Positions 37,197 to 62,021 of a DNA stretch of 64,000 bases are shown piece by piece; position 1 is the stretch's first letter; every line of letters starts with the position of its first letter. Under the pieces are notes generated by a model. That model searched no databases, had not been told where the DNA came from, and saw only the letters and a program-made list of their open reading frames with translations. The stretch is from a virus, in IMG/VR virus record IMGVR_UViG_3300020474_000005, positions 1 through 64,000 of that record. One strand, 5' to 3'. The position numbers and the translations under genes were made by a program.

Positions 37197-37205
37197 GGAT
37201 TTATT

Positions 37206-38219: not shown

Positions 38220-38227
38220 GGATAAGG

Positions 38228-38235
38228 AGTAAATA
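38228..38235 (+). promoter_or_regulatory. Late promoter-like motif (AGTAAATA) before cysteine-rich copy 3
   Basis: AGTAAATA ends 6 nt before the ATG at 38242, the same spacing seen at the leaderless candidates. AAGGAG directly overlaps its start and could serve as ribosome binding site for a read-through transcript, so the promoter role is uncertain. Confidence 0.35.
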
Positions 38236-38241
38236 TAGTAT

Positions 38242-41134: not shown

Positions 41135-42085
41135 ATGAGCAATTCGAAAAGACCTAAGGCTTTTTTTCTAAATGGCGGAATGGGAAGAATAATATCTGCG
41201 ATTCCTGCCTTGGAAAAATATTATGAATCAAAGGAAGATCCTGATTTTATTATTGTGATTGAAGGTATTTGTAATATCCTAAATGGACATCCAACATTGG
41301 ATAATAAAACTTATGATATGTATCATAAAAATTTATTCCACACAAAATTAATTAACATGGACATAGTAAGTCCTGAACCTTACAGACTGAATGAATATTT
41401 CAATCAGAAATGTGACATCGCCCAAGCATTTGATATACTGATTAACAAAAAAGGAGTAAGAAAATTGCCTGCTCCAACGTTAATATTAAGTAAAGAAGAA
41501 CTTTTAGAAGGAAGAAAAGCAGTAGATGAAATAAAAGAAAAAGTTAAGAAAGAAAAATTAGTCATCATACAACCTTTTGGACGTGCTATTACACAAATAG
41601 ATAATTCTTTCATAGACAAAAGCAATAGAAGTATAGAATTCACAAATTTAAAAAAAATTATTAAAAAATTACAAGAAAAAGATTGGGCAGTATGCGTAAT
41701 GGCTGAGTTCGGAATAGAATTTAAAGACGCAGGATTTAAAGATGAGGTTGCTATTCCTGAAATAGCAGATTTACGTAACTGGGCAGGTTTAATAAAGTAT
41801 GCAGATCACTTTTTAGGATGTGATAGTGTAGGTCAACATCTTGCAAAAGCAATGGAAACTCCAGCAAGTGTTGTTATGGGAGCAACGTATCCGATAAACA
41901 CTTCATATCCAGACGATAAAAGTTTTAAAATTATTGATATGGGACAATTTGATAGAGAATATGACCCTATAAGAATAAGTTTCGATGAAAGGATCAGTAG
42001 AAAGCATGAAAGAATTATGTCAATGACTCCTGAAATAGAAGATTATGTAGTGTCTGCTGTTAACGGAGATCCAATAGAGGAATAA
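41135..42085 (+). CDS. GT9 (heptosyltransferase)-like glycosyltransferase, copy 1
   Basis: This 316-residue protein begins FFLNGGMGRIISAIPALEK, the G-x-G-D/R-x3-x-P-A-L pattern of family 9 transferases, and has the C-terminal nucleotide-sugar site 'HFLGCDSVGQHLAKAMETPA' followed by VVMGATYPIN, like the 'GxDSGxxHLAxAxxxPxxxxFGxtxP' of WaaC/WaaF. GT9 enzymes typically use ADP-heptose. The phage also encodes HldE and HldD for ADP-heptose at 54650-57307, which supports this donor. It shares its architecture with the protein at 43912, and the two flank a carbamoyltransferase with almost no spacing. Confidence 0.7.
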   Translation: MSNSKRPKAFFLNGGMGRIISAIPALEKYYESKEDPDFIIVIEGICNILNGHPTLDNKTYDMYHKNLFHTKLINMDIVSPEPYRLNEYFNQKCDIAQAFDILINKKGVRKLPAPTLILSKEELLEGRKAVDEIKEKVKKEKLVIIQPFGRAITQIDNSFIDKSNRSIEFTNLKKIIKKLQEKDWAVCVMAEFGIEFKDAGFKDEVAIPEIADLRNWAGLIKYADHFLGCDSVGQHLAKAMETPASVVMGATYPINTSYPDDKSFKIIDMGQFDREYDPIRISFDERISRKHERIMSMTPEIEDYVVSAVNGDPIEE

Positions 42086-43919: not shown

Positions 43920-44892
43920 AAAAACAGCAATATTTGTAAACGGTGGTGCAGGTAGAAGCATAAGTTCAATACCAGCAATAGAAAAATACATAGAAGAGAA
44001 CGCAGATCTAGATCCAATTATCATTTGCGAAGGTGGTACAGATGCATACAAAGGTCATCCTAAACTACATTATAGAGCATATGACAATTGGCACAAAAAT
44101 TTATTCCAAGATTTATTAAAAGATAGAGATTTATTATCGCCTGAACCATATAGAGTATGGGAATATTACAATCAAAAATGTAGTTTAGGTCAAGCATATG
44201 ATATAGCAATAAATGATAAAGGAATTAGAGATTTGCCAAGAGCAAATTTAAAATTAAGCAAGGAAGAAATATTATTAGCACGAAAAATGATTGCGGAAGT
44301 CAAAGAAAAAACAGGAAAAGATAAGATTGTTGTATTCCAACCTTTCGGCAGAGGCGCACAGCCAGAAAAACTTGATGAAAAACAAAAAGAAAAACAACCT
44401 GACATAATAGACTCTACAGGAAGAAGTGTAGAACTACAAAATGTTTGGAATATTGTACGTAAATTAAGCAAAGATTATGGTGTAATGGTAATGAGTGAAT
44501 TTCCATTAGACTTTGGAAAGCACATACCCAATAAACCAGTGGCATTGCCTATGGGAACACACATTAGAGTATGGATGGGTATTATTCAACAAGCGGATCA
44601 TTTTGTTGGTTGCGATTCAGTGGGTCAACATATTGCTCATTCATATAATAAATCAGCAACTGTGATAATAGGCTCTACGTATCCTATTAATACTACTTTT
44701 CCAGATGATGAAAAATTCAATGTAATTGATTTAGGTAAAGATGAACGTGTGTACAGTCCAATAAGAGTCACTTCAGATGAGTTTTCAGACAGACTTAATG
44801 AAGGTATTATGGCTATGGATGAGGAAGTAGAAACACGTATTATTAAATCTGTACAAAGGCTTATCAAACACGGCAAAAACGCCCGTAAATAA
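43912..44892 (+). CDS. GT9 (heptosyltransferase)-like glycosyltransferase, copy 2
   Basis: This 326-residue paralogue of the 41135 protein starts with IFVNGGAGRSISSIPAIEK and has 'HFVGCDSVGQHIAHSYNKSA' followed by VIIGSTYPINTTFPD. Both share 'Y-D-x-x-H-K-N-L-F-x' and S-P-E-P-Y-R near residues 60-85. The start overlaps the carbamoyltransferase by 8 nt. The two copies are clearly diverged, so they may attach two different sugars or act on different acceptors. Whether the acceptor is a virion protein, LPS or DNA cannot be seen. Confidence 0.7.
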   Translation: MARKTAIFVNGGAGRSISSIPAIEKYIEENADLDPIIICEGGTDAYKGHPKLHYRAYDNWHKNLFQDLLKDRDLLSPEPYRVWEYYNQKCSLGQAYDIAINDKGIRDLPRANLKLSKEEILLARKMIAEVKEKTGKDKIVVFQPFGRGAQPEKLDEKQKEKQPDIIDSTGRSVELQNVWNIVRKLSKDYGVMVMSEFPLDFGKHIPNKPVALPMGTHIRVWMGIIQQADHFVGCDSVGQHIAHSYNKSATVIIGSTYPINTTFPDDEKFNVIDLGKDERVYSPIRVTSDEFSDRLNEGIMAMDEEVETRIIKSVQRLIKHGKNARK

Positions 44893-45395: not shown

Positions 45396-47252
45396 ATGGC
45401 AGTAGTAAAAAGACCTTTCATAAGTGAAAATGGTTTTCAAAGTACAGGATTCGCAGTTGATACGGCAGGTAACGTAACTGTCCGTACAATTACTAACACA
45501 TATACTCCACCTGCTCCGGCAGTGGTTCCAGATTTTAATGTAGAGGAAACATCAGGTGCTTTTACATGGAAAAAAGACGGTACAGCAGTTGCAGGAAACA
45601 ATCCAACAATTACTATAGAACGTGGTAAAACATATTCTATAAATTTAACTTTAAACAGTTTAGCATTTAACATTTACAAAGCAGATACAGGTAACAGTGC
45701 TGTTCCAGGATTACTTTACAGCACAGGATTATCACACACAAACATTGTAACTGGTTCGACATTAGTTACAGGAAGTAAAAATTTCTCACAAACTTGGCAA
45801 CAAGCAACTACTGGAGCAAATAGAACTGCACAATATTTTGTGCCTGACACAACAGGAACGTCATATGCAACTAAAAAATTACCAGTTGTAATTGCTTTAC
45901 ATGATTCAGGTAGCACTAGTGCAACAGGATTAGCGTCAATAAATTACATTACAAATTCAGTGTTAATTGCGCCTCAAGGTTACAATAACACATGGAACGT
46001 AGGATATCAATCTAGTAAAGCAGATGATATAGCATTGTTAGATTCAATTATTGCTGACTTGGCAAATTATGATAACGTTGATACAAGAGAAATTACAATA
46101 ATAGGTTATGGAAACGGTGCTCAGTTGGCTCTACAATATTCTAATTACAATCAATCTGCAACAATAAAAAATATAATTTGTTACAATGGTCTTCTACACA
46201 TGGACCAATACAATTCTACTTTAGGAAAATTTTACAATTATTCTTTAAATTCTGTAGACAACGATACATCAACTGAAATTAGTTGGAGTGAACTTACACC
46301 AATAGGACAAAGACAAGTATTAATGTTCAATGGTGAACAAGAACTTAATTTTTTATTCAACGGCGGAACTTACTTAGGTCAAAGTTTATACAGCGGTGTA
46401 GATAGTATTCATGGAATGGCTGTTGCAAACGCTTACAGTGGAACAAAAATTACATCAGCAACTTTACAACCAAATGGAAGTAATCTATACGATTACACAT
46501 CAGTTAAAATGTACTCATTTCCAACTGTGGCTAACAATTTTTCTGGTGTACAGAATGATATTAGAACATTAATTACAACACAAATTACTCCTTCAACATA
46601 TTTGGATATTCCTACATCTACGACTTTGACAGATGCGGCGGCGCAAGGTCAACAAACAGGAAATTTAAGTTACACAGTTCCAGTAGATGCTCCGGACAGT
46701 ATGTTTTATGGTGACAGTGATGGAAATCCGTTCGGAACGGTTACAGTTACACAACCATCAGTAATTGGTGTTGGTGTATTCAGCAGTATTTTAAACACAG
46801 GAAATTTATTACAGAATGGTGTTAATGCAAATATAGAAATGAAACCAACTGGAACAGGATTGATCACCATTAATCCTGAGACTACAGGTAGCATTAATAA
46901 CATGAATGTTAATACAGCACAATTAACAACATCAGGAAACGTAAATTTAACACCAAATGCAGATGTTACAATAAGTCCACAAGCAAGTGGTAACCTTACA
47001 ATTAGTCCTCTTTCAGTAGGCTCATTAGATAACGTCACAGTGGGCGGAACAACACCAAGAAATGGAACCTTTTCAAGTTTGGTTTCGAGTGCAGGAACGT
47101 TAAATAGTACTACAATAGGATTAACAACTGCGGCGCAGGCGGCATTTACATCGGCTACTGTAACAAGTGGGCCGGCAACGGCTAATAGTTTAACTAGAAA
47201 GTCGTATGTAGATAACACGGCGACAGTATTAAGTATTGCCTTAGGAGCATAG
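45396..47252 (+). CDS. Fibre protein with an alpha/beta-hydrolase-like domain inserted in a cupredoxin-like domain
   Basis: This 618-residue protein begins as a fibre (KRPFISENGFQSTGFAVDT). Residues about 48-110 look like the first half of a cupredoxin (PTITIERGKTYSINLTL). Residues about 155-400 then resemble a PHB-depolymerase/LpqC-type esterase: LPVVIALHDSGS, LIAPQGYNNTW, 'KADDIALLDSIIADLANYDN' and 'VDTREITIIGYGNGAQLALQ'. The nucleophile elbow, normally G-x-S-x-G, reads G-Y-G-N-G (residues 237-241), so the catalytic Ser is missing. The cupredoxin fold resumes at about residue 420 (LSYTVPVDAPDSMFYGDSDG, then GTVTV) without copper ligands. The C-terminus is fibre repeat. The hydrolase part may now only bind its ligand. 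Confidence 0.55.
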   Translation: MAVVKRPFISENGFQSTGFAVDTAGNVTVRTITNTYTPPAPAVVPDFNVEETSGAFTWKKDGTAVAGNNPTITIERGKTYSINLTLNSLAFNIYKADTGNSAVPGLLYSTGLSHTNIVTGSTLVTGSKNFSQTWQQATTGANRTAQYFVPDTTGTSYATKKLPVVIALHDSGSTSATGLASINYITNSVLIAPQGYNNTWNVGYQSSKADDIALLDSIIADLANYDNVDTREITIIGYGNGAQLALQYSNYNQSATIKNIICYNGLLHMDQYNSTLGKFYNYSLNSVDNDTSTEISWSELTPIGQRQVLMFNGEQELNFLFNGGTYLGQSLYSGVDSIHGMAVANAYSGTKITSATLQPNGSNLYDYTSVKMYSFPTVANNFSGVQNDIRTLITTQITPSTYLDIPTSTTLTDAAAQGQQTGNLSYTVPVDAPDSMFYGDSDGNPFGTVTVTQPSVIGVGVFSSILNTGNLLQNGVNANIEMKPTGTGLITINPETTGSINNMNVNTAQLTTSGNVNLTPNADVTISPQASGNLTISPLSVGSLDNVTVGGTTPRNGTFSSLVSSAGTLNSTTIGLTTAAQAAFTSATVTSGPATANSLTRKSYVDNTATVLSIALGA

Positions 47253-47259
47253 AAAAAGA

Positions 47260-50200
47260 ATGGCTAAAAAACGAATAAACGACTATAAATTTATACCAGG
47301 TATACCTTCAACAGGTAATCTTTATCCTAATGCTTGGGCACAACTAAATGCCAACTTTGAATTTTTAAAAGATGAAGCAACGGCTTTTATTGCTTCAAGA
47401 GTAACAACAGACACAGCATACAATCCCTACCCAAATGCATCAGCAAGAATAGTAAACAACTTAAATTACATCAAGGCGGAAGTTGCCAAGTATGTTGAAA
47501 ACCAAGTTGCAGGAAACGTGGCTCCATTTGCAGGTTACACAGGTTTATCAGCGAACATCAAAGCAGACGTTGAGAAAGTTGTTAATGCGGCATACAAAGA
47601 CACAAGATATGGTGGTAACGAAAGAATGCGAACACAATCCAACACATACTATATCGATGGTGTACTACAATTAGGAGACCAAGGTAATCCTGAAATACAA
47701 TATTTGACTTACGCAAGAACTTTGATCGACAGTTACATCTTACCAGGTGTTGCTAACTCTACAATAAACACAGAAGGAATATCACAAAACACTTCAGGTT
47801 CTAATGGAGAAGCGGCTGGTAGAACATTGATGAAGTCAAACATGGATGTAATAATTAATGCGATTGACAATGGAATACTTACTTTACCAGCAGAAGTGAT
47901 TTCAAGTTATCCATTTGCAGATTACACATATGACTCTTACCTTTGTGAAAGAGATATGGGTTACAATCTAACTGGTATATTAAAAGATTTAAGATATGGT
48001 GGAAATGAACAATCAAGATACAACGCAGGAACTTACTGGAACGGTGAAGTATCTGTTTTAACAGGAAATAGACAACCAGAAATACAAACAAAAAATGAAA
48101 TAAAAAGCATTATCAACAATTACATTTTTCCTGGTACAGCATTTTCAAGCAGACAGAGTCCTGTTGTTACACAACAAACAATTTTAGGTTCAGCAGGTGA
48201 ATCTGCGGCAAGTACAAGAGTTACGAGTTTATTCGGAATAATCACAGACGTGATACAAAATGGTTTAGACAACTTACCTGCACAGGTATCAAACGGAATA
48301 TCTAGTGTAAAAATTCCTGAAAGAGTTGAATTAGCAGAATTATTATTGATCACGAACACTACAGACAACACAGTATTATACACATTCAACGACGCGACAC
48401 AAGGTGCAACAGTAAGTTACAAAAGAGAATACGAAACAGGAACATCTAACACAACAGCATTTGTTGATCCAGATTTTCCTAAGGCATATCACGGAAATGA
48501 TGTAATCACTACAATATTTTTAAATGCTGATACATCAGCAGATGCCTCAACAGATGAAATACAAATATTTGTTGAAGATGATGAAGTAAGAACACGTCCA
48601 CATGACTTTGGAACAGATGCGATTGAAAGACTTAGAGTTGCACAACCAGAATCAATGCTTGACGCTGACTTTGAATACGGACTTCAGCCTACGAAGTGGC
48701 AAGCGATTGCAACACAAAGAGGTTATCCATCAATTTATGAAGTACCAGGTACAGACTTTGATATAGCAACTGTAACTTCTGATGCTTCTGCGGGAACACA
48801 AGGTATTGGTTCATCTTTAATCACTGTGACAACAGTAGGTCCACACAACTTTGAAGCAGGACAACCGTTTACAATTACAGGATTTAACAACGCAGTATCA
48901 GGTTCAAGTAGAGCGGCGGGTTCATTTGTTGTAAACACTATTGTAAGTAACACACAATTTACATACTACGCAAAAGCAAAAGTTGCCGTTGCAAACCCAA
49001 CAACGATTTCTACAACTAACACACAGTTAAGAGAAGGTGACTTCTACACAGGAGCGGCGATTGGATTTCCTTCGTTCAGTGTTGCAAGTAATGGTTCTTC
49101 AGGAACTTTCACAACAACAATAAGTGCTTTAAGTGGTGCGAGTATTTTACCATACACAGGTACAACGCCACCAATTGGTGCACCTTTATCAGGAACAGGT
49201 ATACAAACAGGTACACAGGTAACTGGTGCTAACGGATCCGGTGGTTCATTAGCATCTCCAAACGTTACAGGAGACTTTTTATCAGGTGTTACAGAAATTA
49301 CTGTGGCAAGTTCAGCAGGTATTGTGCAAAACTCAGTAATTGATAGAGGAGATGGTTACGCAGTTGCAATCACAAACATCGCTGGAAATAACTTAACATT
49401 ATCAGGACCTCTTACACAAAATTTAATTGGTGACATTACACAATACACAGGACTAGCAGGTGTAAATTATAACCCAGCGGGACAATTAGCAACATTTGAT
49501 ATCACTAGAAATGGTGGAAACTACTCCGTTGTTATTGCGGGATCAGGTCAAGACTACACAGTAGGTGATGCGATAGTTGTAGCAGGAACAACTCTAGGTG
49601 GTTCTACTCCAGCCAATGACGCAACAGTATTAGTAGAAAGTGTAGACACAGGAGGAGAAATCCTTACAGCAACTATTTCAGGATCTGCATTCACTGGTTC
49701 AGGAAGCACAACAGGTACACCAGCAGTATTCCAAGGTGGATTAGGACAAGGTGCACAACTCAATGTAACAAAAACAAACCAATCTTACACAGTTGCATTA
49801 AATTCACCAACTTACACAGGCACAGCAGTAGGAACTTTCCCAGGAGCGGCAGGTTCAAGTGCAACATTTGATGTTGTTGCAACAGCAGGATCTTATTCTG
49901 CAAGTGTAAACGGAGCAGGTACAGGATACATTGTCAATGATGTAATTAGAATTGACGGTTCAACATTTGGTGGTACAAGTGCCAACCATGCAAACATCAG
50001 AGTAACAGCAGTAACAGGTGGTGGAGCAATTCAAACACTTTCAGTATTAGGTACAGCACCAGCACAGACAGTAACTTATAACACAGTTGCATTTACAGGT
50101 GGTAACGGTTCGTCAGCGGCATTTAACATTACGAGAACAGGTACAACTTATTCAGCGGCAATTACAAATTTAGGTTCTAACTATCAACAGAATGATATTT

Positions 50201-53200
50201 TAACTTTCGTTGGAACAAATCTAGGTGGTGCTACAACTGCCAATGATGCGGCATTAGAAGTAACAGCAGTTGATGGCAATGGTGGAATTTTAACTTTCAA
50301 CGTTACAGGTACAGCGGTTGATACAAAATCTTACACAGCAATATCAAGCGGTACAAACTTATCAGGTGTTGACGCAACATTTGATGTTGCAATTTCTGGA
50401 ACATCTTATTCAGTATCAGTAAACCAAGCAGGTAGCGATTACAGTGTAGGACAAGATTTAAAAATATTAGGAACTTCTTTAGGTGGTACAACACCAGCAA
50501 ACGATTTAACAATAACAGTAGCATCAATCACAGGTTCTACTGGTGCAGGCCCTATCAACACAATTTCAACATCAGGCACAGCGGCACTAGAAGGAACAAA
50601 TGGTTACAAAGTAGGTGATCGATTCTTAGTAGGCGGCGGTGACGTAGGTGGAGTGGCAACAACCAATGATGCTTATGTGGCTGTAAGTGGTGTAAACGGT
50701 ACAGGTGGTATCACAGGTGTAACAATCAGTGGTACGGCAACAGATGCCAATGTAGATTATACAAGTCCAGCATACACAACATCCGCTTCGGGTACTGGTG
50801 CAGTGTTTGATATAAACAGAACAGGCACAACTTATACAGCAACATTCAGCAACAATGGTAGTTCATTTGTAGGTGCAGAAACAATAGATATTGCGGGTAC
50901 GGCATTAGGTGGAACAAGTCCAGCAAATGATTGTCAAATTACTGTTGACACAGTTTCAGCAGGTGCGGTAGCAACATTCACAGTAACTGGTACGGCTGTA
51001 AACACACAGGTTTACAACAATGTTAACAAAGCAGGTATAACAGGAACAGGTTTAAGTGTTAACGTAACACTGAACAGTGGTTCTTACAACGTTGCACTTA
51101 ACAATCCAGGTGCAAACTACGCCGTTGATCAAACATTTAAAATTGCAGGAACAGATTTATTTGGTACATCACCAACAAACGATTTAACTTTTACAATCAC
51201 AGCGGTAAACAATATTCCAAGTGGTGTTGTAACAACAATAGGCAGTGTGGCAGGAACGGCAAACACAGGTACTGGTAACTCTTTAGGAGTAAGTGGTACA
51301 AACAGAACTCCATCAGGAGTTGGTGCTCAGTTCAGTGCTACAAGATCCAACCAGACTGACTCTTCAACAGCATACACAGAAGTTACAATAACAAGTTTAG
51401 GTTCGAACTATGCAATAGGTGACAAACTTGTGATAGCAGGTACTAGTTTAGGTGGACAAACTCCGGCAAATGATATCACGTTAAGAGTTCAAAGTGTAAA
51501 CACAACTGGCGGAATATTGACACAAACACACAGCGGTACAGCAGTGGCTGGTACAGGATTAAGTGTGTATGGTTCGATATCTATATCAGAAACAATTTCA
51601 CAAAACATCGCACAGAACAGCACAATAAGTTACAGTGCGTTAGCAACTATACAGGTAGACTTTACTACTCCTCACGGACTAGTTCCAGGAAACGCATTCT
51701 TGATTGTGATACAATCAGATGACGGTGCCAATAATCACATACTTGCATCAGGTCCATTCCTAGCAACGGCAATTCCATCCTCAACAAGATTACAATATCA
51801 AGTTAGATCTCCGGGTGCAATAACAGATTCAGGTTGGCAAGGTTTTGTATATGCAAGACCAGATTCATTCTTTATACATAGACCATTTGATGGAGGTGTA
51901 CAATTAGGTACAGGTGGTCCATCACACGGTGCACAGGCGATACGTCAATCTAAAAAATACATTAGATATCAATCAGGTAAGGGTTGTATGTATACGACGG
52001 GTGCCTTGTTTGCTCCAAGTTATGACCTATTGACTGTGACAGCAGACGGATTAGCACAGGGATCAACAATCACAGTAACGACTGATGATGTTGACCACAA
52101 TTTACAGGTAGGTGCTAGAATAAGATTGATTGGTATTGCCACATCGGGTTATGATGGCACATACACTATCGCAAGTATTGTAAATGAAAGAACATTTACA
52201 GTATTGGCAACTATCGCACTTGGCGGAACGACAGCAGAATTTACAGATCAACCACAGGTATCATTGTATCAATGGAATGGTGCAACTGTAAGATCAGGAA
52301 TATTTGATGACCAAAACGGAATTTATTGGGAATATGATGGACAAACAACAAACGCAGTACAAAGAACAGCAACAAGACAACTTGCAGGTGTAGTAACTGT
52401 TACACCTAACAGTAACACTGTATCAGGAACTGGTACAAGATTTAGAGAACAAGTTAAAGCAGGTGACAGAATAGTAATCAGAGGTATGACACACGTTATA
52501 TCATCTGTTGCTTCTAATACATCAATGTTTGTTACTCCAGATTATAGAGGTGTCAACACTTCAACTGGTGTAAAAGTTTGTGCTGTTGTAGACAAAAAAG
52601 CAAAACAATCAGAATTTAATAGAGATAAAATGGACGGTAATAGCAAGAGCGGTTACAATTGGGACGTATCTAAGATGCAGATGATCGGGATACAATTTTC
52701 ATGGTACGGGGCTGGATTTATTGACTGGATGGCAAGAGGTCAAAAGGGTGACTTTATATTTGCTCACAGAATGAGAAATTCAAACATTAACACAGAAGCA
52801 TTTATGAGAACAGGTAACCAACCTGTACGTTACGAAGTAACCAACGAAGGTCCAAACGGTAGATTAGAATTAGATATGACAACTGTACAAACAACTGTAC
52901 AATTAGTTGATGCAAGTTTCTTTCCGTCAACAGGTGGAACAATTTTCATAGACAATGAAATTATCACTTACACAGGTAAGACAGGTGACGTATTGACTGG
53001 TGCCACAAGAGCGGCAACACTTACAAACTTTAACGCAGGTGCTACAAGAAACTATACAGCCGGCGCGGCAACAACACACTTTAGAAACACAGGAGTTGTG
53101 TTAATATCTAACACAGCATCACCGATCATATCACACTGGGGATCAGCATATCTAACAGATGGTAACTTCGATGAAGATAGAGGATATCTATTCAGTTACG

Positions 53201-54270
53201 CTTCCACAGGATTAGCACTTACAACTACAAAACAAACAGTGTTCCTATTAAGACTAGCACCGTCAGTATCCAACGCATTGACAGGTGACCTAGGAGATAG
53301 AGATCTACTTAACAGAGCCCAGTTGCTACTAGACGGTGTTGAGATTACAACTGACGTTCCAGCGGCGGGTGTAAACGGACAGTTGGTTGTACAGGGTGTA
53401 TTGAATCCACAAAACTATCCAATTGATCCAGCAGATATAGGTTGGGGTGACTTGAAAGGTCCAGCACAAGGTGGACAGCCAAGTTTTGCCCAGATTGCGG
53501 CAGGTGGTTCGGTTAACTGGAACGGTGGTGCATCGCAAACAACAGCGACAGCAAATACACAGGCACAGATGACTGCAACAGCAAACCACTGGTTCAACTT
53601 GAGTGGTAACAGAAACTATGCATACTTCCTTGAAGCACAATGGGAAGGCAAAGGTTTAAGAGTAGGTATGGCAGTATCTTCCGGACAGTTCCCTTCAGGT
53701 ACAGTTGTTACACAGATTATTGACTACAACTCATACTACTTTGTAAGATTCAGTAATAGACACACAGGAATAAGTTCAAATCAAGCAGTGACATTTACAC
53801 TTGGTGGTGATCTATCCGGTACTAACTTCTTGTACATGGATCAAACAACGTGGGAGGCTTCTAACGCAGTTAGCGGTACAGAAGTTGATGTAAGTTACGC
53901 TACTTTCCCACCAGGTACAACAGTGGCATCAGTTGACTCATTAGATACATTTGGAACAACTGACTTCTACAGAGTTACGTTCACACAGACGTCGACGGGT
54001 AATATTGCGGCGGGTGATGCAATTACATTTACATTTGGACAACCACCATATGCACAACCGGGTGAAACAATCTTTTCATTCATTGGGGTACCGGGTGAAA
54101 GAGCAACATTGGCTCTTAGCGCCATTAAAGCCTTAACTAACACAACACTAGGTGGACGTGGTACGTTCCCTAATGGTCCAGACGTGTTGGCTATCAACGT
54201 ATTTAGAACAGCGGGAACGGGTTCTGTTGCAGGAACAGTTACACTGCGTTGGTCAGAAGCACAGGCTTAA
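47260..54270 (+). CDS. Giant repeat-containing virion protein (2336 residues)
   Basis: This is the largest gene in the window. The N-terminal 350 residues contain a duplicated helical unit (KDTRYGGNERMRTQSNTYY and KDLRYGGNEQSRYNAGTYW, each followed by a 'Y-x-L/F-P-G' segment). Residues about 744-1430 hold eight units of about 80 residues with 'Y-x-V/I-G-D-x-L/I-x-I-A-G-T-x-L-G-G-x-T-P-A-N-D'. The C-terminal third (from about residue 1440) has 'FDGGVQLGTGGPSHGAQAIR', 'QSGKGCMYTTGALFAPSYDL' and 'IGIQFSWYGAGFIDWMARGQ', non-repetitive and probably globular. It is likely a long virion fibre or tail-associated protein. It ends the plus-strand fibre block, tail to tail with the cupin gene. Confidence 0.6.
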   Translation: MAKKRINDYKFIPGIPSTGNLYPNAWAQLNANFEFLKDEATAFIASRVTTDTAYNPYPNASARIVNNLNYIKAEVAKYVENQVAGNVAPFAGYTGLSANIKADVEKVVNAAYKDTRYGGNERMRTQSNTYYIDGVLQLGDQGNPEIQYLTYARTLIDSYILPGVANSTINTEGISQNTSGSNGEAAGRTLMKSNMDVIINAIDNGILTLPAEVISSYPFADYTYDSYLCERDMGYNLTGILKDLRYGGNEQSRYNAGTYWNGEVSVLTGNRQPEIQTKNEIKSIINNYIFPGTAFSSRQSPVVTQQTILGSAGESAASTRVTSLFGIITDVIQNGLDNLPAQVSNGISSVKIPERVELAELLLITNTTDNTVLYTFNDATQGATVSYKREYETGTSNTTAFVDPDFPKAYHGNDVITTIFLNADTSADASTDEIQIFVEDDEVRTRPHDFGTDAIERLRVAQPESMLDADFEYGLQPTKWQAIATQRGYPSIYEVPGTDFDIATVTSDASAGTQGIGSSLITVTTVGPHNFEAGQPFTITGFNNAVSGSSRAAGSFVVNTIVSNTQFTYYAKAKVAVANPTTISTTNTQLREGDFYTGAAIGFPSFSVASNGSSGTFTTTISALSGASILPYTGTTPPIGAPLSGTGIQTGTQVTGANGSGGSLASPNVTGDFLSGVTEITVASSAGIVQNSVIDRGDGYAVAITNIAGNNLTLSGPLTQNLIGDITQYTGLAGVNYNPAGQLATFDITRNGGNYSVVIAGSGQDYTVGDAIVVAGTTLGGSTPANDATVLVESVDTGGEILTATISGSAFTGSGSTTGTPAVFQGGLGQGAQLNVTKTNQSYTVALNSPTYTGTAVGTFPGAAGSSATFDVVATAGSYSASVNGAGTGYIVNDVIRIDGSTFGGTSANHANIRVTAVTGGGAIQTLSVLGTAPAQTVTYNTVAFTGGNGSSAAFNITRTGTTYSAAITNLGSNYQQNDILTFVGTNLGGATTANDAALEVTAVDGNGGILTFNVTGTAVDTKSYTAISSGTNLSGVDATFDVAISGTSYSVSVNQAGSDYSVGQDLKILGTSLGGTTPANDLTITVASITGSTGAGPINTISTSGTAALEGTNGYKVGDRFLVGGGDVGGVATTNDAYVAVSGVNGTGGITGVTISGTATDANVDYTSPAYTTSASGTGAVFDINRTGTTYTATFSNNGSSFVGAETIDIAGTALGGTSPANDCQITVDTVSAGAVATFTVTGTAVNTQVYNNVNKAGITGTGLSVNVTLNSGSYNVALNNPGANYAVDQTFKIAGTDLFGTSPTNDLTFTITAVNNIPSGVVTTIGSVAGTANTGTGNSLGVSGTNRTPSGVGAQFSATRSNQTDSSTAYTEVTITSLGSNYAIGDKLVIAGTSLGGQTPANDITLRVQSVNTTGGILTQTHSGTAVAGTGLSVYGSISISETISQNIAQNSTISYSALATIQVDFTTPHGLVPGNAFLIVIQSDDGANNHILASGPFLATAIPSSTRLQYQVRSPGAITDSGWQGFVYARPDSFFIHRPFDGGVQLGTGGPSHGAQAIRQSKKYIRYQSGKGCMYTTGALFAPSYDLLTVTADGLAQGSTITVTTDDVDHNLQVGARIRLIGIATSGYDGTYTIASIVNERTFTVLATIALGGTTAEFTDQPQVSLYQWNGATVRSGIFDDQNGIYWEYDGQTTNAVQRTATRQLAGVVTVTPNSNTVSGTGTRFREQVKAGDRIVIRGMTHVISSVASNTSMFVTPDYRGVNTSTGVKVCAVVDKKAKQSEFNRDKMDGNSKSGYNWDVSKMQMIGIQFSWYGAGFIDWMARGQKGDFIFAHRMRNSNINTEAFMRTGNQPVRYEVTNEGPNGRLELDMTTVQTTVQLVDASFFPSTGGTIFIDNEIITYTGKTGDVLTGATRAATLTNFNAGATRNYTAGAATTHFRNTGVVLISNTASPIISHWGSAYLTDGNFDEDRGYLFSYASTGLALTTTKQTVFLLRLAPSVSNALTGDLGDRDLLNRAQLLLDGVEITTDVPAAGVNGQLVVQGVLNPQNYPIDPADIGWGDLKGPAQGGQPSFAQIAAGGSVNWNGGASQTTATANTQAQMTATANHWFNLSGNRNYAYFLEAQWEGKGLRVGMAVSSGQFPSGTVVTQIIDYNSYYFVRFSNRHTGISSNQAVTFTLGGDLSGTNFLYMDQTTWEASNAVSGTEVDVSYATFPPGTTVASVDSLDTFGTTDFYRVTFTQTSTGNIAAGDAITFTFGQPPYAQPGETIFSFIGVPGERATLALSAIKALTNTTLGGRGTFPNGPDVLAINVFRTAGTGSVAGTVTLRWSEAQA
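49489..51550 (+). repeat. Eight tandem protein repeats of about 80 residues
   Basis: Each unit begins with a 'A-T/x-F-D/N-I-T-R' strand, then 'Y-S-V-x-I-x-x-x-G-x-x-Y-x-V-G-D', 'G-T-x-L-G-G-x-T-P-A-N-D' and ends near 'G-G-I-L-T-x-T-x-S-G-T-A'. One unit (around 50590-50740) lacks its first strands. DNA-level identity between units is modest, so this is an old expansion. Confidence 0.65.
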
Positions 54271-54660
54271 TTATTTTTCTTCAGTAACGGTAGTTTGTTG
54301 ATTATCGCCTTTAATTATGCGATAATTGTCATTGGGATCATCAGCAGTACTAACTTCAGTAATACTTCCATTGTCAGTAAGACATTGTACTTGATGAGGT
54401 AGGAACGGCGGATTACGCCATGTGTCGCCTTCATTTAATTCTTTGGTATATAATGTTGCATCTTTGGTATCTATCCAACTTAATAAAAATTTACCGTTGT
54501 TTATAAACCATGATTCATCTTTTACAGCGTGATAGTGCATTGAAAATTTTGCACCTTTTCTATTGAAAACCATTATTTTTCCACAATATAAATCATTGGA
54601 AGCAAAGATTAATTCATATCCCCAACCTTTGTCTATTTTTCCTTCTTTATTAATTGACAT
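54271..54660 (-). CDS. Cupin (mannose-6-phosphate isomerase type II-like)
   Basis: This 129-residue single-domain cupin has K-G-W-G-Y-E near residue 11, metal ligands H42, H44 and E49 in M-H-Y-H-A-V-K-D-E, and H89 in FLPHQVQ, followed by 'EVSTADDPNDNYRI', the order seen in the C-terminal domain of type II phosphomannose isomerases. It is the last gene of the minus-strand operon and overlaps HldD by 11 nt. It may isomerise or bind a sugar phosphate in the same pathway as HldE and HldD; the substrate cannot be read from sequence. Confidence 0.7.
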   Translation of the reverse strand: MSINKEGKIDKGWGYELIFASNDLYCGKIMVFNRKGAKFSMHYHAVKDESWFINNGKFLLSWIDTKDATLYTKELNEGDTWRNPPFLPHQVQCLTDNGSITEVSTADDPNDNYRIIKGDNQQTTVTEEK

Positions 54661-55468
54661 TTAAGAATTCCTCCACTGTTCTAAATTTGTGTTCTATATT
54701 TTTATTTAATTCTGTTAAATCTGCACTGGTGTAGGTCTGATATTGACCTTGTAATTTTGCAGGCATGGGTATTGTTTCTATTTGTGCGTCATATTTTTTG
54801 GCAACAAGTTCTGCAACTTTTTGAAAAGATATTGGTGCTCCTGTGCCAACATTGAATATACCAGAAACATCAGCATTAAGCATTTTTCCATGTACCTCAC
54901 AGACATCATCTACACTAACAAAATCACGTAGATACTTGTCACTGTTTTCAAACAATTTTATTTTGCCAGTCTTTGCTTGATTGGCAAATTTAGTTACAGG
55001 AGATGCTTGATCGCCTTTCTTTTCTTCGTTGTGTCCATACACATTAAAATATCTAAATCCTTGTACAAGCACTTTAAATTCTCCCATTACAGAATTAACA
55101 AATCTATCAAATAGGTATTTGCTCCAAGCATAAGCATTTAATGGATACACGTCACCATCTTCCTTGAAATTTCCTGTGTTCCCATACACACTTGCGGAAC
55201 TGGCATACTGAAAATTTGTACCCATGTTGTCGCACATTTCCAAAAGTTTCATGCTGTATTCTAAATTCGTTTTCATGATTTTATCAACGTCTCTTTCAGT
55301 TGTGCTTGTGATTGCTCCTAGATGTATGATCCAATCATACAAAGACGGATCCGGAAAATGATTATAATCTTCCCATCTAAAGCCGATGACTTCATGCCCT
55401 TGTTTTGTAAGATGCATTCCTAAATGATCTCCGATAAATCCTTTGTAACCTGTTAAGCAAATTTTCAT
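54650..55468 (-). CDS. hldD: ADP-L-glycero-D-manno-heptose 6-epimerase (HldD-like)
   Basis: This 272-residue short-chain epimerase has the NAD site T-G-Y-K-G-F-I-G (residues 6-13), S-S-A-S-V-Y-G (90-96) and catalytic Y113-x3-K117 (YAWSK). HldD-specific parts follow: KGDQASPVTKF, 'IKLFENSDKYLRDFVSVDDV', GIFNVGTGAPISFQ, and 'IPMPAKLQGQYQTYTSADLT', which closely match the E. coli enzyme in order. It would convert ADP-D,D-heptose to ADP-L,D-heptose. It is about 40 residues shorter than E. coli HldD (310). The ATG overlaps the stop of the upstream oxygenase gene (ATGA), and HldE lies one gene upstream. Confidence 0.85.
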   Translation of the reverse strand: MKICLTGYKGFIGDHLGMHLTKQGHEVIGFRWEDYNHFPDPSLYDWIIHLGAITSTTERDVDKIMKTNLEYSMKLLEMCDNMGTNFQYASSASVYGNTGNFKEDGDVYPLNAYAWSKYLFDRFVNSVMGEFKVLVQGFRYFNVYGHNEEKKGDQASPVTKFANQAKTGKIKLFENSDKYLRDFVSVDDVCEVHGKMLNADVSGIFNVGTGAPISFQKVAELVAKKYDAQIETIPMPAKLQGQYQTYTSADLTELNKNIEHKFRTVEEFLNVN

Positions 55469-56070
55469 TTAACATTCTCCCACAATTTTATAATTTTATC
55501 AGCGCCTTCTGGTCTTATGTCTTTAGTAAGTTCATCGTGCCAGTTGGTCAAGTAGTTCATGTTTATGTTAATCCTGCTTCTTTTATCTGTACAAGTCGTG
55601 CCTGTGTGTTCCATGTAACTTGGAAATACCACCATTGAATTTTCTACACTAGGAACTTTTGTGCCATCTTTAAATTCAGTGTAACCATCTGTTGTGTTTA
55701 CATAATAAATTGCGGTGTAACTTAATGCCACTCTTGTATCTGCATGGAATCCATGCTTAATAATTTTTTCTGTTCTTGGTATGTTGTTTGCTTTTACTCT
55801 AATAAAAGTATTTGCTTTCAATACATTAAAGATTGGATAAAGCATTACCCAATTACTGTGTTCAGTGGTCACATCGGAAACTCCATGAAAGTTGTGTTGA
55901 AACTGTAATTGTTCTTTTTCCTCAGTCATTTTTTGTGCATCTTCAACAACGTGTTCCGAGTAATACCAAGGAAAATGATCACTTAACATTTTGTCCGTAA
56001 GTATCTTAAATTCTTCTTTTTGAATTACATTGGTGCAAATTAATTTGCCTTTTTCAATTCTTGTTTCCAT
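55465..56070 (-). CDS. 2OG-Fe(II) oxygenase (prolyl-hydroxylase-like)
   Basis: This 201-residue protein shows the H-x-D...H...R set of iron and 2-oxoglutarate dependent oxygenases: H109 and D111 in GFHADTR, 'TAIYYVNTTDGYTEF', H155 in SYMEHTGT and R164/R166 in DKRSRININ. It lies between HldE and HldD and overlaps both (17 nt and 4 nt), so it probably acts in the same sugar pathway or on the glycosylated target. The substrate is unknown. Confidence 0.78.
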   Translation of the reverse strand: METRIEKGKLICTNVIQKEEFKILTDKMLSDHFPWYYSEHVVEDAQKMTEEKEQLQFQHNFHGVSDVTTEHSNWVMLYPIFNVLKANTFIRVKANNIPRTEKIIKHGFHADTRVALSYTAIYYVNTTDGYTEFKDGTKVPSVENSMVVFPSYMEHTGTTCTDKRSRININMNYLTNWHDELTKDIRPEGADKIIKLWENVK

Positions 56071-57307
56071 TAACCTTGTCCACTATGTTTGATGTTGAAA
56101 AACCTTCTACTGTTGGAAATATTATCACTTCGGCAAGGTCATTTCCGACCACTGTGTCGAACGTGTAATCTCCACCTTTTACAATCACGTTTGGTGTATG
56201 TTCTTTTAATGCATCTATGGGAGTATCTTGTTCAAATACAACCACTTGGTCCACCCAGGGCAGTTGTAATAGTTGTTGTTCTCTTGCCCAAGCATTATTG
56301 AATGGTCTATCGTCACCCTTTAATCTTTTTACACTTGCATCAGAATTAATTCCAACAATTAATCTATCTCCTTGCTGTTTCGCAAATTTTAATAATTCTA
56401 AATGTCCTTTATGCAGAATATCAAAAACGCCATTTGTCCATACCACTGTGTCTTCAATATCTGATCTATCTATTATAGATACTCCTCTTTTTTGCACAAT
56501 TTTTTCTGCACCTTTAACTGCTAATTCACAACAAGCAATCATATTGTTGGTTTTAAAATAATGTGCAATTATGGCAAGTACAGAATCACCTGCACCACTT
56601 ACATCTGCAACTTCAACAGTATTGCTTTTAATATGATCATAAGAATCTTTAGTGACTACGTGTATACCGTTCGCTCCATCAGTTACAACAAGCCATGTCC
56701 ATACATTATCTTCACACATTTTTTTAGCAGTTTCAATATTAAAATTACCAAACCATGCTTCATATTCTTTCATATTTGGTTTGACTAAAAATGCACCAAC
56801 GTATCTACTAAATCCTTGTTTTGGATCCACATATACATTCTTACATTTTTCTAAAATTTTCGTTATTGTATCTTTTTTGATTACTCCTTTGTTGTAATCA
56901 CTTACAATTACCACATCGGTTTCATTTAAATTTTCAAGCAGTATTTCAACAGGAGTATCTGCCTTATATTTCTCCTCCTTGTCCACACGAATAAGGTGTT
57001 GTCCGTTCTGTCCTATGATTCTAGTTTTGGTAGTTGTCATTTCACCATCTTGGCACAGATGCGACTTTACTCCATTTTGCAGTAAAATTTCTTGGATTTT
57101 GTGTCCGGGGATGTCGTTGCCCACGGCACCATAAAGCCACGTGTCTGTGCCCAAGTTTGATAGGTTTAACGCTAGGTTTCCAGCGCCTCCAACATTGAAA
57201 TCTTTGTTTGTTTCTTTAACTACAAGCACCGGTGCTTCTGGACTCACTTTTTGGCAATCGCCCTGTGTCCACATATCAAGCATTACATCACCGATGATTT
57301 TAATCAT
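56054..57307 (-). CDS. hldE: Bifunctional heptose-7-phosphate kinase / heptose-1-phosphate adenylyltransferase (HldE-like)
   Basis: This 417-residue protein has both HldE domains. The ribokinase-like part carries IIGDVMLDMW, VSPEAPVLVV, GGAGN (residues 40-44) and the catalytic GAGD (238-241). The nucleotidyltransferase part carries TNGVFDILHKGH with H-x-G-H at residues 299-302, then VGINSDASVKRLKG and DRP. It would phosphorylate D,D-heptose-7-phosphate and, after phosphatase action, attach AMP to give ADP-heptose. It is shorter than E. coli HldE (477), mainly by trimmed loops. The ATG overlaps the stop of the Nudix gene (TAATG). Confidence 0.9.
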   Translation of the reverse strand: MIKIIGDVMLDMWTQGDCQKVSPEAPVLVVKETNKDFNVGGAGNLALNLSNLGTDTWLYGAVGNDIPGHKIQEILLQNGVKSHLCQDGEMTTTKTRIIGQNGQHLIRVDKEEKYKADTPVEILLENLNETDVVIVSDYNKGVIKKDTITKILEKCKNVYVDPKQGFSRYVGAFLVKPNMKEYEAWFGNFNIETAKKMCEDNVWTWLVVTDGANGIHVVTKDSYDHIKSNTVEVADVSGAGDSVLAIIAHYFKTNNMIACCELAVKGAEKIVQKRGVSIIDRSDIEDTVVWTNGVFDILHKGHLELLKFAKQQGDRLIVGINSDASVKRLKGDDRPFNNAWAREQQLLQLPWVDQVVVFEQDTPIDALKEHTPNVIVKGGDYTFDTVVGNDLAEVIIFPTVEGFSTSNIVDKVNGNKN

Positions 57308-57735
57308 TACATTAATTTTAACATTTTGAACACAGTATCTAATTTGACCTGGTTCATTTTATTTTGAAGAGTCTTACGTAAACCTTGGTGTAATGGCTTG
57401 GGCCAATTACCAAAACTTACCCACGCATATCCATCGTGTTCTGTGTTTAATTTTGGAATAAATTCTTTCTCTACAACACACAAGAAAGTGTGATATAAAA
57501 AATTTTCATCATTGCTTATAAAAGTTTCCATAGGTATTTTCTTTTTTATTTCTACTTCACCTACTTCCTCTTTAATCTCTCTATGTAGTCCTTCCCATAA
57601 ATTTTCATCTACGGTTGTGCCACCTACTAATCCCCATACGTGATTTTGTTTGCTCTGCACTCTATGAAGTACTAAAAACCTTTGGGTATCCAAAGTATAG
57701 AAGAGTGCACCGCACCCTATAATTTTACTGCTCAT
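57307..57735 (-). CDS. Nudix hydrolase
   Basis: This 142-residue protein contains a complete Nudix box at residues 38-60: G-x5-E44-x7-R-E-I-K-E-E-V-G-E. Before it lies VLHRVQSKQNHVWGLVGG, a usual Nudix start. Nudix enzymes cut nucleoside diphosphates linked to another group. Directly upstream of HldE and overlapping it, this one could act on a nucleotide sugar or simply clean up nucleotides. It lies 16 nt after gp15. Confidence 0.85.
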   Translation of the reverse strand: MSSKIIGCGALFYTLDTQRFLVLHRVQSKQNHVWGLVGGTTVDENLWEGLHREIKEEVGEVEIKKKIPMETFISNDENFLYHTFLCVVEKEFIPKLNTEHDGYAWVSFGNWPKPLHQGLRKTLQNKMNQVKLDTVFKMLKLM

Positions 57736-57751
57736 GTTAATAATTATGTGA

Positions 57752-59209
57752 TTAAGAGATCTTCCAGGTTCCTTTACGATATTCGCCTTCGAAACTTAAT
57801 ATCCATTCACTACCATTCCATTTATATTGGATACCAGTTTTTAAATTGGTAATGTATGTTGGTGTAAATGTGCTATCACCTGGATCAGGATTTGTACTTG
57901 CGTCAAATATTATTTGCCAATTTGCACCATTCCATTCTACAATGTCATTGGCACTTGCAATTAAATCTACATTGCTGTTGCTTTTCCAAGCATCTGCACC
58001 ATCTGTGTTTTGTGAACTACCAATATCTTTTAGTAGCAATACACGTTTTCCATTTTGTTTAATTGCACTTGGATTAAATGTTGTAGGATCAACAATAAAG
58101 TCTACACTACCTCTTGTATCTTGAGGTCCTACTATTACTGTGTCTGTAGGTATTGTGTCCATGTCCCACGTGACCAATAATTGCATAGGATTAGATTCGT
58201 TCAATGCAATAGTTCCTACTACAGGCACATCTATACCTTCTCTGTTCAATTGTATTTTACTTAAACCTGCTTTGTAATTTAACAACACATCTAAATATCC
58301 GTTCCATGCTAATCCGCCTATCACGCCTTTGTCAATTATAGATGCTGTTTGTCCTAGGACGTAGATATCGAATTGTGTTCCTGTTGTGCCTTGTACACTA
58401 GCAGTATCTTTACGCGAAGCAACGCTTGTATCGACGCTACCATCAGCATTTGTTCTGATTGACGCTTTAATACTTTTGTCATAGTCATCTTGATATGCCA
58501 TTAGTTCTGGCATAGATTGACTTAGGTCTATGTTCCCAGTCTTTTCGTTGAATATACTTGTAATAATATGAGTAATCACTCCTAATTTTTTTACTTTGGT
58601 TGGTGGACTAATGAATATAGGCATACTGAAAGTTAATGTTGCCACGTCCACTTCTGTTTCTGTACCAACAGGAATAGACCTGCTAGAAAAATTTATATTG
58701 TCTAATTCAACTACACTCAAACTTGTCCAGTCTATATAATTGTCAGTGGTTTGAATTTCTAAACTTGGATTGAATAACATACAAATTTGTTCTATTATTT
58801 GTAATTTTTGTTCTGTATTGCTTGACCAAATATCACAGTTCACTGTTAATGTGTATGGAGTTGGCATCAGTCTTTCAACTGTAACATTTTTTCCTTGCGT
58901 GTTTAGGTATTCTTTGCCTGTTGCATCGTAGGAACGTTCTCTTAAATGTACTTTACTAATAAAACTTGCATCAGATAATCTTGTTCTATCCATTTGCAAG
59001 TTGGTAATGTATATTCCCATTCTAGGAATGCTTGGCAATTTATTTTCGGAATTATCTCTGATTATGTGTGCAACTTGACGTGTCATATCACCATACATTA
59101 CAGGGATAGTTCTTAATGCATCATCACCATCTTTGTAAGAAAAATTACTCATCAATCTAATGATCTGAGTAATATATCTTCTAACCTGTCCGTCGTAAAA
59201 ATGTTGCAT
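57752..59209 (-). CDS. 15: Tail completion and sheath stabiliser protein gp15
   Basis: The 485-residue protein begins MQHFYDGQVRRYITQIIRLM and 'ALRTIPVMYGDMTRQVAHI', then LPRM/IPRMGIYI and a 'TPYTLTVNCDIWSSNTEQKL' segment with QIIEQICMLFNP, in the order of T4 gp15 (F-Y-x-x-x-x-R-R-Y..., P-Y/S-x-x..., I-V-E-Q-I-L-P-Y-F-x-P). gp15 forms the ring that joins tail to neck. It is much longer than T4 gp15 (272): the C-terminal 200 residues are a beta-rich extension with two short 'W-N-G-A/S-x-W' motifs. The ATG overlaps the stop of the 50-residue gene upstream. Confidence 0.85.
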   Translation of the reverse strand: MQHFYDGQVRRYITQIIRLMSNFSYKDGDDALRTIPVMYGDMTRQVAHIIRDNSENKLPSIPRMGIYITNLQMDRTRLSDASFISKVHLRERSYDATGKEYLNTQGKNVTVERLMPTPYTLTVNCDIWSSNTEQKLQIIEQICMLFNPSLEIQTTDNYIDWTSLSVVELDNINFSSRSIPVGTETEVDVATLTFSMPIFISPPTKVKKLGVITHIITSIFNEKTGNIDLSQSMPELMAYQDDYDKSIKASIRTNADGSVDTSVASRKDTASVQGTTGTQFDIYVLGQTASIIDKGVIGGLAWNGYLDVLLNYKAGLSKIQLNREGIDVPVVGTIALNESNPMQLLVTWDMDTIPTDTVIVGPQDTRGSVDFIVDPTTFNPSAIKQNGKRVLLLKDIGSSQNTDGADAWKSNSNVDLIASANDIVEWNGANWQIIFDASTNPDPGDSTFTPTYITNLKTGIQYKWNGSEWILSFEGEYRKGTWKIS

Positions 59210-61376: not shown

Positions 61377-62021
61377 ATGCAACATGAAATGATTCCGTTA
61401 TTTTCCGTGCCTTTGATCAAAACTAACATTGGAGTAATGGATCCAGTGTCTATGGCATGGGTACGTGGGTTGGATTATCCTTCCCAAAGAACAGGTACAG
61501 ATCATTCAGATGATGATTTACCTATGATGAATAGAGGTATGAAAATACTTGAAAGACCACAACTAAAAGATTTAAAATACAAAATACAAAATGCAATAAA
61601 TTATTTTGTGGGCGATGTTTTAGGCATAGTGCAAAATTTTCAAATTACAACAAGTTGGATTAACAAAACAGACAAGACAGAATACATAGACAAACATTCA
61701 CACCCAAACAGTATAATAAGTGGTGTATATTATATAAGCACAACTCCTAAATGTGCTCCAATTATTTTCAGCAAACCTCATCTATACTCTAACATTACAT
61801 TTCAAAACATACAGTTGGCGTACAGTGGTGAAAATAAAAATCAATACAATACAGATTACTATGGAATAAATCCACTGCCTGGAGAATTATTAATGTTTCC
61901 ATCTTGGTTAGAACATGAAGTATTAGAACAAGGACCAGAACACAACCGTATCAGTCTAGCATTTAATACATATCCAAAAGGAGACATTGGAGAAGGTACA
62001 AAGCAGTTAAAAATATTATGA
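61377..62021 (+). CDS. 2OG-Fe(II) oxygenase (T4-like phage type)
   Basis: This 214-residue protein has the late part of a 2OG-Fe(II) oxygenase fold: KHSHPNSIISGVYYIST (metal His107 or His109), 'PGELLMFPSWLEHEVLEQGP' (His180) and NRISLAFN (Arg191 for 2-oxoglutarate). The first ligand pair is less certain than in the 55465 protein. Proteins of this kind are frequent in T4-like marine phages, where the substrate is not known. It has its own early-type promoter and overlaps the dNMP kinase by 4 nt, so it is likely expressed early. Confidence 0.75.
   Translation: MQHEMIPLFSVPLIKTNIGVMDPVSMAWVRGLDYPSQRTGTDHSDDDLPMMNRGMKILERPQLKDLKYKIQNAINYFVGDVLGIVQNFQITTSWINKTDKTEYIDKHSHPNSIISGVYYISTTPKCAPIIFSKPHLYSNITFQNIQLAYSGENKNQYNTDYYGINPLPGELLMFPSWLEHEVLEQGPEHNRISLAFNTYPKGDIGEGTKQLKIL

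Follow-up and report, generated by a model that had tools for sequence, protein, structure and literature searches.

A candidate heptose glycosylation module arranged around a giant tail-fibre gene in a T4-like phage contig

Introduction

What would a marine T4-like phage make with genes for activated heptose that lie among its tail genes, and where would the product go? This question is raised by the 64-kb stretch of viral DNA analyzed here (positions 1 to 64,000 of IMG/VR record IMGVR_UViG_3300020474_000005, hereafter the window), in which five minus-strand genes at 54271-57735, including homologues of the ADP-heptose enzymes HldE and HldD, follow the tail gene gp15. The window belongs to a 76-kb contig, a fragment that covers the structural half only of a T4-like genome. 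An earlier note, made from the letters of the window, took the five genes for a full activated-sugar route serving the heptosylation of virion proteins, host lipopolysaccharide (LPS) or DNA. Our analysis partly supported this interpretation. The most telling parts had been missed, namely two candidates of the glycosyltransferase family 9 (GT9) type and a carbamoyltransferase on the other side of a giant fibre gene. We read the two gene groups as a heptose-based phage glycosylation module that would decorate the phage's own fibre or other virion proteins, a reading to which we assign a probability of roughly 0.45.

Heptose genes behind gp15

The five genes are transcribed in the order Nudix hydrolase, HldE, 2-oxoglutarate (2OG) oxygenase-like protein, HldD and cupin; the boundaries, order and names given to them in the earlier note were exact, the oxygenase name being the weakest. 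Their ends overlap, as had been described, by 11 (cupin/HldD), 4 (HldD/2OG-like), 17 (2OG-like/HldE) and 1 (HldE/Nudix) bases, and the coordinates of gp15 (57752-59209, minus strand; tail-sheath stabiliser; PF16724, 1e-24) start 16 bases upstream in the same minus-strand run.

The gene at 56054-57307 encodes a predicted bifunctional HldE, in which a heptose-7-phosphate kinase domain and a heptose-1-phosphate adenylyltransferase domain are fused. Its best NCBIfam matches were the HldE models PRK11316 (5.8e-98), rfaE_dom_I (3e-70) and rfaE_dom_II (1e-43). Its full length aligned with that of E. coli HldE at 34% identity (2e-76), and it also aligned with the solved heptose-7-phosphate kinase HldA (PDB 4e84, 1.9e-32). 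Both predicted sites were found, as evident from the kinase motif GAGD and the HxGH motif, and GDVMLD, SPEAPV, TNGVFDILHxGH, NSDAS..RLKGD and GGDY are also kept. The gene at 54650-55468 encodes a compact HldD-like ADP-glyceromanno-heptose 6-epimerase (TIGR02197, 3e-69; E. coli HldD, PDB 1eq2, 4e-49). The Rossmann motif GxxGxxG (residues 7-13), YxxxK (residues 113-117) and the second active-site lysine (E. coli Lys178), located in KKGDQAS, are all kept, although the protein is about 40 residues shorter than E. coli HldD, with a reduced N-terminal part, and TIGR02197 aligns from residue 44 only. No other family matched either protein better. Judged from their sequences, HldE and HldD are divergent members of their families, and the profile scores do not assure isofunctionality. 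We consider ADP-heptose synthesis by the phage genes to be very probable.

A tree placed the 16 phage HldE sequences, which include the split kinase/adenylyltransferase pairs of cyanophages, apart from 79 bacterial HldE sequences on a single branch with a support of 98 in the SH-like approximate likelihood ratio test (SH-aLRT), where the root and the long branches call for caution; a separate phage lineage thus emerged from the phylogeny that the earlier note had proposed. Identity to the nearest bacterial genes was 31-38%. Among relatives, HldE had a ratio of nonsynonymous to synonymous substitution rates (dN/dS) of 0.10-0.18, and the remaining cassette genes spanned 0.01-0.3; values of 0.02-0.18 for HldE, GT9, carbamoyltransferase and cupin, a range like that of gp13 and gp15, denote purifying selection. 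The phage/bacterial split and the low dN/dS values therefore indicate that the heptose genes are old and have been maintained in phages.

The 2OG-Fe(II) oxygenase-like gene (55465-56070, minus strand) is the weakest call of the five and would be an optional tailoring gene. It had no Pfam match, and the assignment comes from phrog_81 (9e-6) together with an HxD...H...R motif picked out by eye; the gene was not detected in three relatives (L023, L027 and L047). The proteins of its best family, phrog_274 (3e-42), bear the 2OG-oxygenase motif, both in the window and at L057:5164-5697, and are labeled DNA endonuclease V, probably an error that has passed from one cyanophage record to the next.

GT9-like genes and a carbamoyltransferase across the fibre gene

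On the opposite side of the giant fibre gene, 10-16 kb away, we found three nearly touching plus-strand genes at 41135-42085, 42087-43919 and 43912-44892. The outer two encode putative heptosyltransferases of one family, phrog_8954, which PHROGs lists as of unknown function, and copy 2 (43912-44892; phrog_8954, 7.5e-134) is 48% identical to copy 1 (41135-42085). The PF01075 profile matched copy 1 with an E-value of 3e-4, scoring 20.5 bits by hmmscan against a cut-off of 22 and 22.1 bits when scored with neighbours, and it exceeded the cut-off in phrog_8954 relatives (29.1 and 26.6). The predicted fold of copy 1 was most similar to a Veillonella GT9 protein (3tov, Z-score of 19.3), followed by WaaF (16.8), WaaC (15.6) and TibC (14.5); other matches, including other GT-B enzymes, reached at most 12.0, save for one protein in three plant NADH dehydrogenase-like/photosystem I (NDH-PSI) complexes (16-17). 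Additionally, the donor-site motif D-(S/T)-x3-H is kept, with Asp230, Ser231 and His235 in copy 1 aligned with Asp261 and His266 in WaaC, and the Asp and His are invariant in the phage copies. The model makes a GT9 fold very likely for copy 1, and phrog_8954 is probably a GT9-fold heptosyltransferase with a changed catalytic site. It is fairly likely that these enzymes use the ADP-heptose provided by HldE and HldD.

The middle gene (42087-43919) encodes a NodU/WapO-type O-carbamoyltransferase (phrog_1601, 1e-162), with both the N-terminal (PF02543, 4e-24) and the C-terminal (PF16861, 7e-58) domains present. The case for a carbamoylated heptose as the product is evenly poised.

Co-inheritance of the module in related phages

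We found the GT9-like gene in 24 of 50,697 phage records, or about ten phages after duplicates were merged. A full-length HldE match accompanied it in 21; the remainder were a 4-kb fragment, a record holding HldD and, of HldE, the adenylyltransferase half alone, and a distant Aeromonas phage. Carbamoyltransferase relatives with at least 43% identity came from the same 23 marine records, and the next ones, at 40%, lay outside the GT9 set. In IMG/VR, the order gp15-Nudix-HldE-(2OG)-HldD-cupin-fibre was conserved in dozens of contigs. The GT9 gene was present in 18 of 20 long contigs with HldE, the other two breaking off close to HldE, no more than about 11 kb and 2.4 kb away, and every long relative that reaches far enough (18/18) carries GT9 together with the heptose genes and the carbamoyltransferase. 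The cassette flanks the giant fibre gene here, in phage S-CAM3 and in a divergent group of contigs (L049-L052; HldE 42-43% identical). In this group, the carbamoyltransferase, fibre, HldE, cupin, a small haloacid dehalogenase-type protein (mini-HAD) and HldD form one run, and the cupin is 65-67% identical to that of the window, while HldE is only 43% identical. Four well-separated lineages agree, namely this clade, L049-L052, L068 (GT9 and carbamoyltransferase) and the cyanophages, the contigs within them not being independent.

The same comparison removed from the heptose set the Nudix gene (57307-57735, minus strand; PF00293, 3.5e-14), which the earlier note had described as interleaved with HldE and HldD. 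Each of the 53 neck-gene relatives with enough sequence beyond gp15 has it directly behind gp15, including four in which HldE was not found on the contig, and we rejected it as a heptose enzyme. Because it is a constant part of the gp15 locus, also where HldE is missing from the contig, it is no evidence for a heptose route and probably lies outside it. HldE stands directly after Nudix in 43 of the 53; of the other ten, five carry HldE further on, one was unresolved in a short contig, and the four contigs without HldE (L115:6129-6494, L119, L144 and L147) have a different cupin (37-41% identical) right after Nudix.

We also observed insertions in the run. A tryptophan halogenase gene lies between Nudix and HldE in two of the five relatives that carry HldE further on (L110:6106-7152, PF04820, 4e-72; L121:6087-7157, alike by sequence), and a tryptophan halogenase also adjoins the HldE half in S-SSM7. 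A 261-aa gene of no clear family is inserted between the 2OG gene and HldD at L022:8249-9034, with a similar gap in L026, L032-L035 and L043; by eye its product is possibly SGNH-hydrolase-like, which would make it an extra tailoring enzyme.

The halogenase bears on the idea that the product is a soluble secondary metabolite, or some nucleotide-sugar other than heptose. For S-SSM6a, Iyer et al. predicted a halogenated sugar or amino-acid metabolite from a halogenase, carbamoyltransferases, 2OG oxygenases, a cupin and a HAD protein (PMC7824862), and the halogenase of some relatives fits this prediction. However, it is optional among relatives, the HldE domains and HldD are best matched by heptose enzymes, and a GT9-type transferase co-occurs with the heptose genes. 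We regard this explanation as unlikely.

Co-inheritance also bears on whether the phage simply tops up the ADP-heptose pool of its host, either to keep the LPS core that serves as its receptor or to time lysis. HldE and HldD make precursors of the LPS core, and GmhA would be left to the host, as such a role would allow. It would leave the co-inheritance with GT9-like genes and a carbamoyltransferase unexplained, and the cassette also occurs where the host has no heptose in its LPS. In particular, the cassette phage Sf-FS3 infects Synechococcus WH8102, the LPS of which contains neither heptose nor 3-deoxy-D-manno-oct-2-ulosonic acid (KDO) (PMC4515613), so topping up the core heptose of the host cannot be the general purpose. 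This explanation appears very improbable.

The GmhA and GmhB steps

The earlier note described the five genes as a full route while listing GmhA and GmhB as missing. The first description was overstated; the genes hold HldE and HldD only, and a full route from these genes alone was rejected, with GmhA absent and no GmhB stand-in found on the contig. GmhA (TIGR00441, PF13580) was found in none of ten records, comprising the 76-kb contig, four long relatives and five complete cyanophage genomes with heptose genes, in a search that detected its positive controls. The absence of GmhB held as far as a profile of the relatives' HAD protein reached, which found no GmhB-like HAD on the contig, the GmhB family model not having been run.

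The relatives offer a candidate for the GmhB step. Cyanophage proteins labeled phosphoheptose isomerase (phrog_1238) were rejected as GmhA, as they are HAD phosphatases of about 110 aa with DxDGT, TAR, GKP and IDDK motifs, the nearest PDB entry being a capsule-biosynthesis protein (9iqw, 2e-19). The label, carried for example at L057:12747-13091 and L056:10767-11102, is likely a misannotation. By its motifs, this mini-HAD is a candidate for the 7-phosphatase in the relatives; because it is not on the contig analyzed here, the phosphatase would be host-made or encoded in the unseen half of the genome.

For the GmhA step, we considered the metal-binding cupin (54271-54660, minus strand; PF00190, 6e-7), in which the motif GX5HXHX4EX6G is intact. 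A Foldseek search placed D-lyxose isomerase 2y0o on top (7.7e-8), among many ties that included cupin phosphoglucose isomerase. The conversion of sedoheptulose-7-phosphate (S7P) to D,D-heptose-7-phosphate is the same aldose-ketose exchange as that of fructose-6-phosphate to mannose-6-phosphate, so a cupin isomerase could replace GmhA. That this cupin does so is a tentative proposal, and a doubtful one.

The proposed mechanism would then proceed as follows. The cupin might convert S7P to D-glycero-D-manno-heptose 7-phosphate, which the HldE kinase, as its sequence supports, would phosphorylate at C1. The 7-phosphate would be taken off by a phosphatase of the host or, in the manner of the related phages, by a mini-HAD whose gene lies elsewhere. 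The HldE adenylyltransferase would add AMP, and HldD would epimerise ADP-D,D-heptose to ADP-L,D-heptose, both steps again being supported by sequence. Judging by fold and by the linkage of the genes, the two GT9-like enzymes may move the heptose onto an acceptor, and the carbamoyltransferase may add a carbamoyl cap to it, like the one that WapO places on the core heptose of Pseudomonas. The likeliest acceptors by position would be Ser/Thr residues of the giant tail fibre or of neighbouring adhesin-like virion proteins, in the manner of TibC/Aah. A stronger version, in which a self-contained, non-orthologous route from S7P to ADP-heptose (cupin, HldE, mini-HAD and HldD) feeds an Arg-bearing GT9 that O-heptosylates the giant fibre under a carbamoyl cap, even in hosts without LPS heptose, seems rather unlikely.

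Candidate acceptors

The fibre gene (47260-54270, plus strand) sits between the two halves of the cassette and encodes a giant Thr/Ser-rich tail-fibre or virion protein of 2336 aa (Thr 13.4%, Ser 8.3%). It is 43% identical to a virion structural protein of S-CAM3, the gene of which adjoins S-CAM3 HldD. Upstream, 45396-47252 (plus strand; phrog_2576, 5.7e-21) probably encodes a virion or tail-associated protein and, by its position, is a possible acceptor. It contains an alpha/beta-hydrolase-like stretch in which, by eye, GxSxG reads GYGNG, so that the nucleophile is lost; the stretch may be a binding domain. Three tandem Gly/Cys-rich paralogues (36234-39219; phrog_4205) lie upstream of the GT9 gene and are adhesin-like, possible acceptors, and a phrog_4205 relative adjoins GT9 in P-SSM2. 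When phage records were searched for a co-occurring acceptor, phrog_4205 gave only S-CAM1, and 40361-41089 gave no match.

The same chemistry could act on the host surface, where heptose, possibly carbamoylated, on the LPS or capsule of the infected cell would block the adsorption of other phages. This is the published view for cyanophage and pelagimyophage clusters (PMC7824862, PMC7029224, PMC3037559); LPS is the classical GT9 substrate, and carbamoyl-heptose is known in an LPS core (PMC8005017). However, the cassette lies behind gp15 and on both sides of the fibre gene, in a region expected to hold late structural genes, and that timing is late for excluding superinfecting phages; the LPS of Synechococcus WH8102 offers no heptose or KDO core to extend, and no flippase or polymerase was seen among the profiled open reading frames of the window. 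A host-surface acceptor is possible, though on the unlikely side. Because the cassette genes accompany gp15 and flank the fibre gene across phage lineages, and because the Sf-FS3 host lacks heptose and KDO in its LPS, we favour the virion as the acceptor.

DNA, the third acceptor named in the earlier note, found no support. Phage sugar cassettes can modify DNA, and T4 glucosylation is a sugar modification of phage DNA. However, we recognised neither a base hydroxylase nor a DNA glycosyltransferase among the cassette genes, on a contig holding the structural half of the genome only, and we know of no GT9 enzyme that acts on DNA. We consider heptosylation of the phage DNA extremely unlikely.

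Several observations weigh against a module that glycosylates the virion. HldE scored 328, 237 and 148 bits against NCBIfam equivalog cut-offs of 521, 345 and 181.5, respectively, and HldD scored 233.4 against the TIGR02197 cut-off of 274.6, so that the profile check left both proteins with heptose enzymes as best matches and below every equivalog cut-off. The copy 1 model has a modest predicted local distance difference test (pLDDT) value of 69. A sequence-only link of phrog_8954 to WaaC/WaaF was rejected (probability about 5%), and because this profile comparison was too weak, the heptosyltransferase call rests on the fold search. The position that matches the catalytic Asp13 of WaaC is Arg (Arg18) in every phage copy aligned, and the mechanism or activity of the phage enzymes may differ. 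The fold matches of the cupin are unspecific, with many sugar-acting cupins among them, and the mini-HAD was also not found in 10 of the 12 related long contigs searched. Partial matches to the fibre family turn up in cyanophages that do not belong to the GT9 set, and a full-length relative of the giant fibre is missing from several cassette phages. The acceptor itself is assigned from position, and a virion protein in this role is plausible at somewhat less than even odds.

Other features of the contig

The contig carries structural genes of a T4-like myovirus (portal, protease, gp23, baseplate, fibres, gp15, neck protein, sheath region and terminase). Its gp23 is 69% identical to that of Sinorhizobium phage Phosso and its terminase 52% identical to those of PA5oct-type phages; by sequence, the core genes are nearest jumbo phages of the T4 superfamily, not cyanophages. 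The earlier description of the heptose run as a late operon fits its position behind gp15 and beside the fibre, but the T4 late-promoter octamer TATAAATA occurred 0 times in the 64-kb window against 5.3 expected from shuffles; late genes here may rely on another motif or avoid TATAAATA. Sigma-70-like promoters between 53500 and 60800 were uninformative (25 found, 28.6 expected). A second 2OG-Fe(II) oxygenase (61377-62021; PF13759, 2e-23) adjoins gp13 and a deoxynucleoside monophosphate kinase. An FkbM methyltransferase (L002:10932-11471; contig 68932-69471) lies amid tail and terminase genes and could be a further glycan tailoring enzyme.

Comparison with known systems

The closest known arrangements are the cyanophage sugar clusters, described as LPS genes of open function, either functional or stuffer DNA (PMC3037559). 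P-SSM2, S-SSM7 and S-SM2 carry HldE halves, HldD and cupin homologues (T4-GC 304/305/307/308; 24-47% identity) beside virion genes (Sullivan 2010, PMC3037559), and P-SSM2 and S-SSM7, like the window, also carry the carbamoyltransferase and a GT9 homologue. Unlike in these phages, HldE is fused in the window, GT9 is duplicated around the carbamoyltransferase, no HAD was found on the contig, and the core genes are nearest jumbo T4-superfamily phages. The cluster of Iyer et al. 2021 (PMC7824862) shares the carbamoyltransferase, 2OG oxygenase, cupin, HAD, PfkB kinase, nucleotidyltransferase and epimerase; its description there, in the part of the paper concerned with the cluster, does not name the ADP-heptose route or GT9 and proposes capsule decoration or a metabolite as the product. 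For pelagimyophages (PMC7029224), the corresponding section lists rfaE as an LPS-related gene, such genes often lying in a host-recognition cluster, and, unlike here, describes no GT9/carbamoyltransferase module.

Beyond phages, the autotransporter heptosyltransferases TibC/Aah hyperglycosylate adhesins (PMC4358343). Their GT9 fold, ADP-heptose donor and repetitive surface adhesin acceptor parallel the phage fibre glycosylation proposed here. The phage GT9-like proteins differ from them: the model starts directly with a Rossmann strand (residue 8) and has no N-terminal beta-barrel, Asp is missing where WaaC has Asp13, and the aligned identity is only 13%. Pseudomonas WaaC/WaaF and WapO (PMC8005017) combine GT9 with a heptose-acting carbamoyltransferase, as does the cassette; the phage family is remote from them in sequence, and their LPS acceptor is a Pseudomonas feature without support for the phage.

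Compared with the open-access literature, what is new is the ADP-heptose donor throughout, a phage GT9 family among proteins of unknown function, the tie of the carbamoyltransferase to GT9, with carbamoyl-heptose as the suggested product, and the linkage to the fibre; also new are the exclusion of GmhA in complete genomes, the naming of replacement candidates and a module that lies outside cyanophages by its core genes. In this view, the cyanophage LPS genes would amount to a donor route specific for heptose, accompanied by a heptosyltransferase family of its own and a carbamoyltransferase, and co-inherited around a giant fibre in different lineages. If the proposed reading is true, phrog_8954, phrog_1238 and phrog_7851, now unnamed or misnamed, would be renamed, and the module would represent virus-encoded protein heptosylation.

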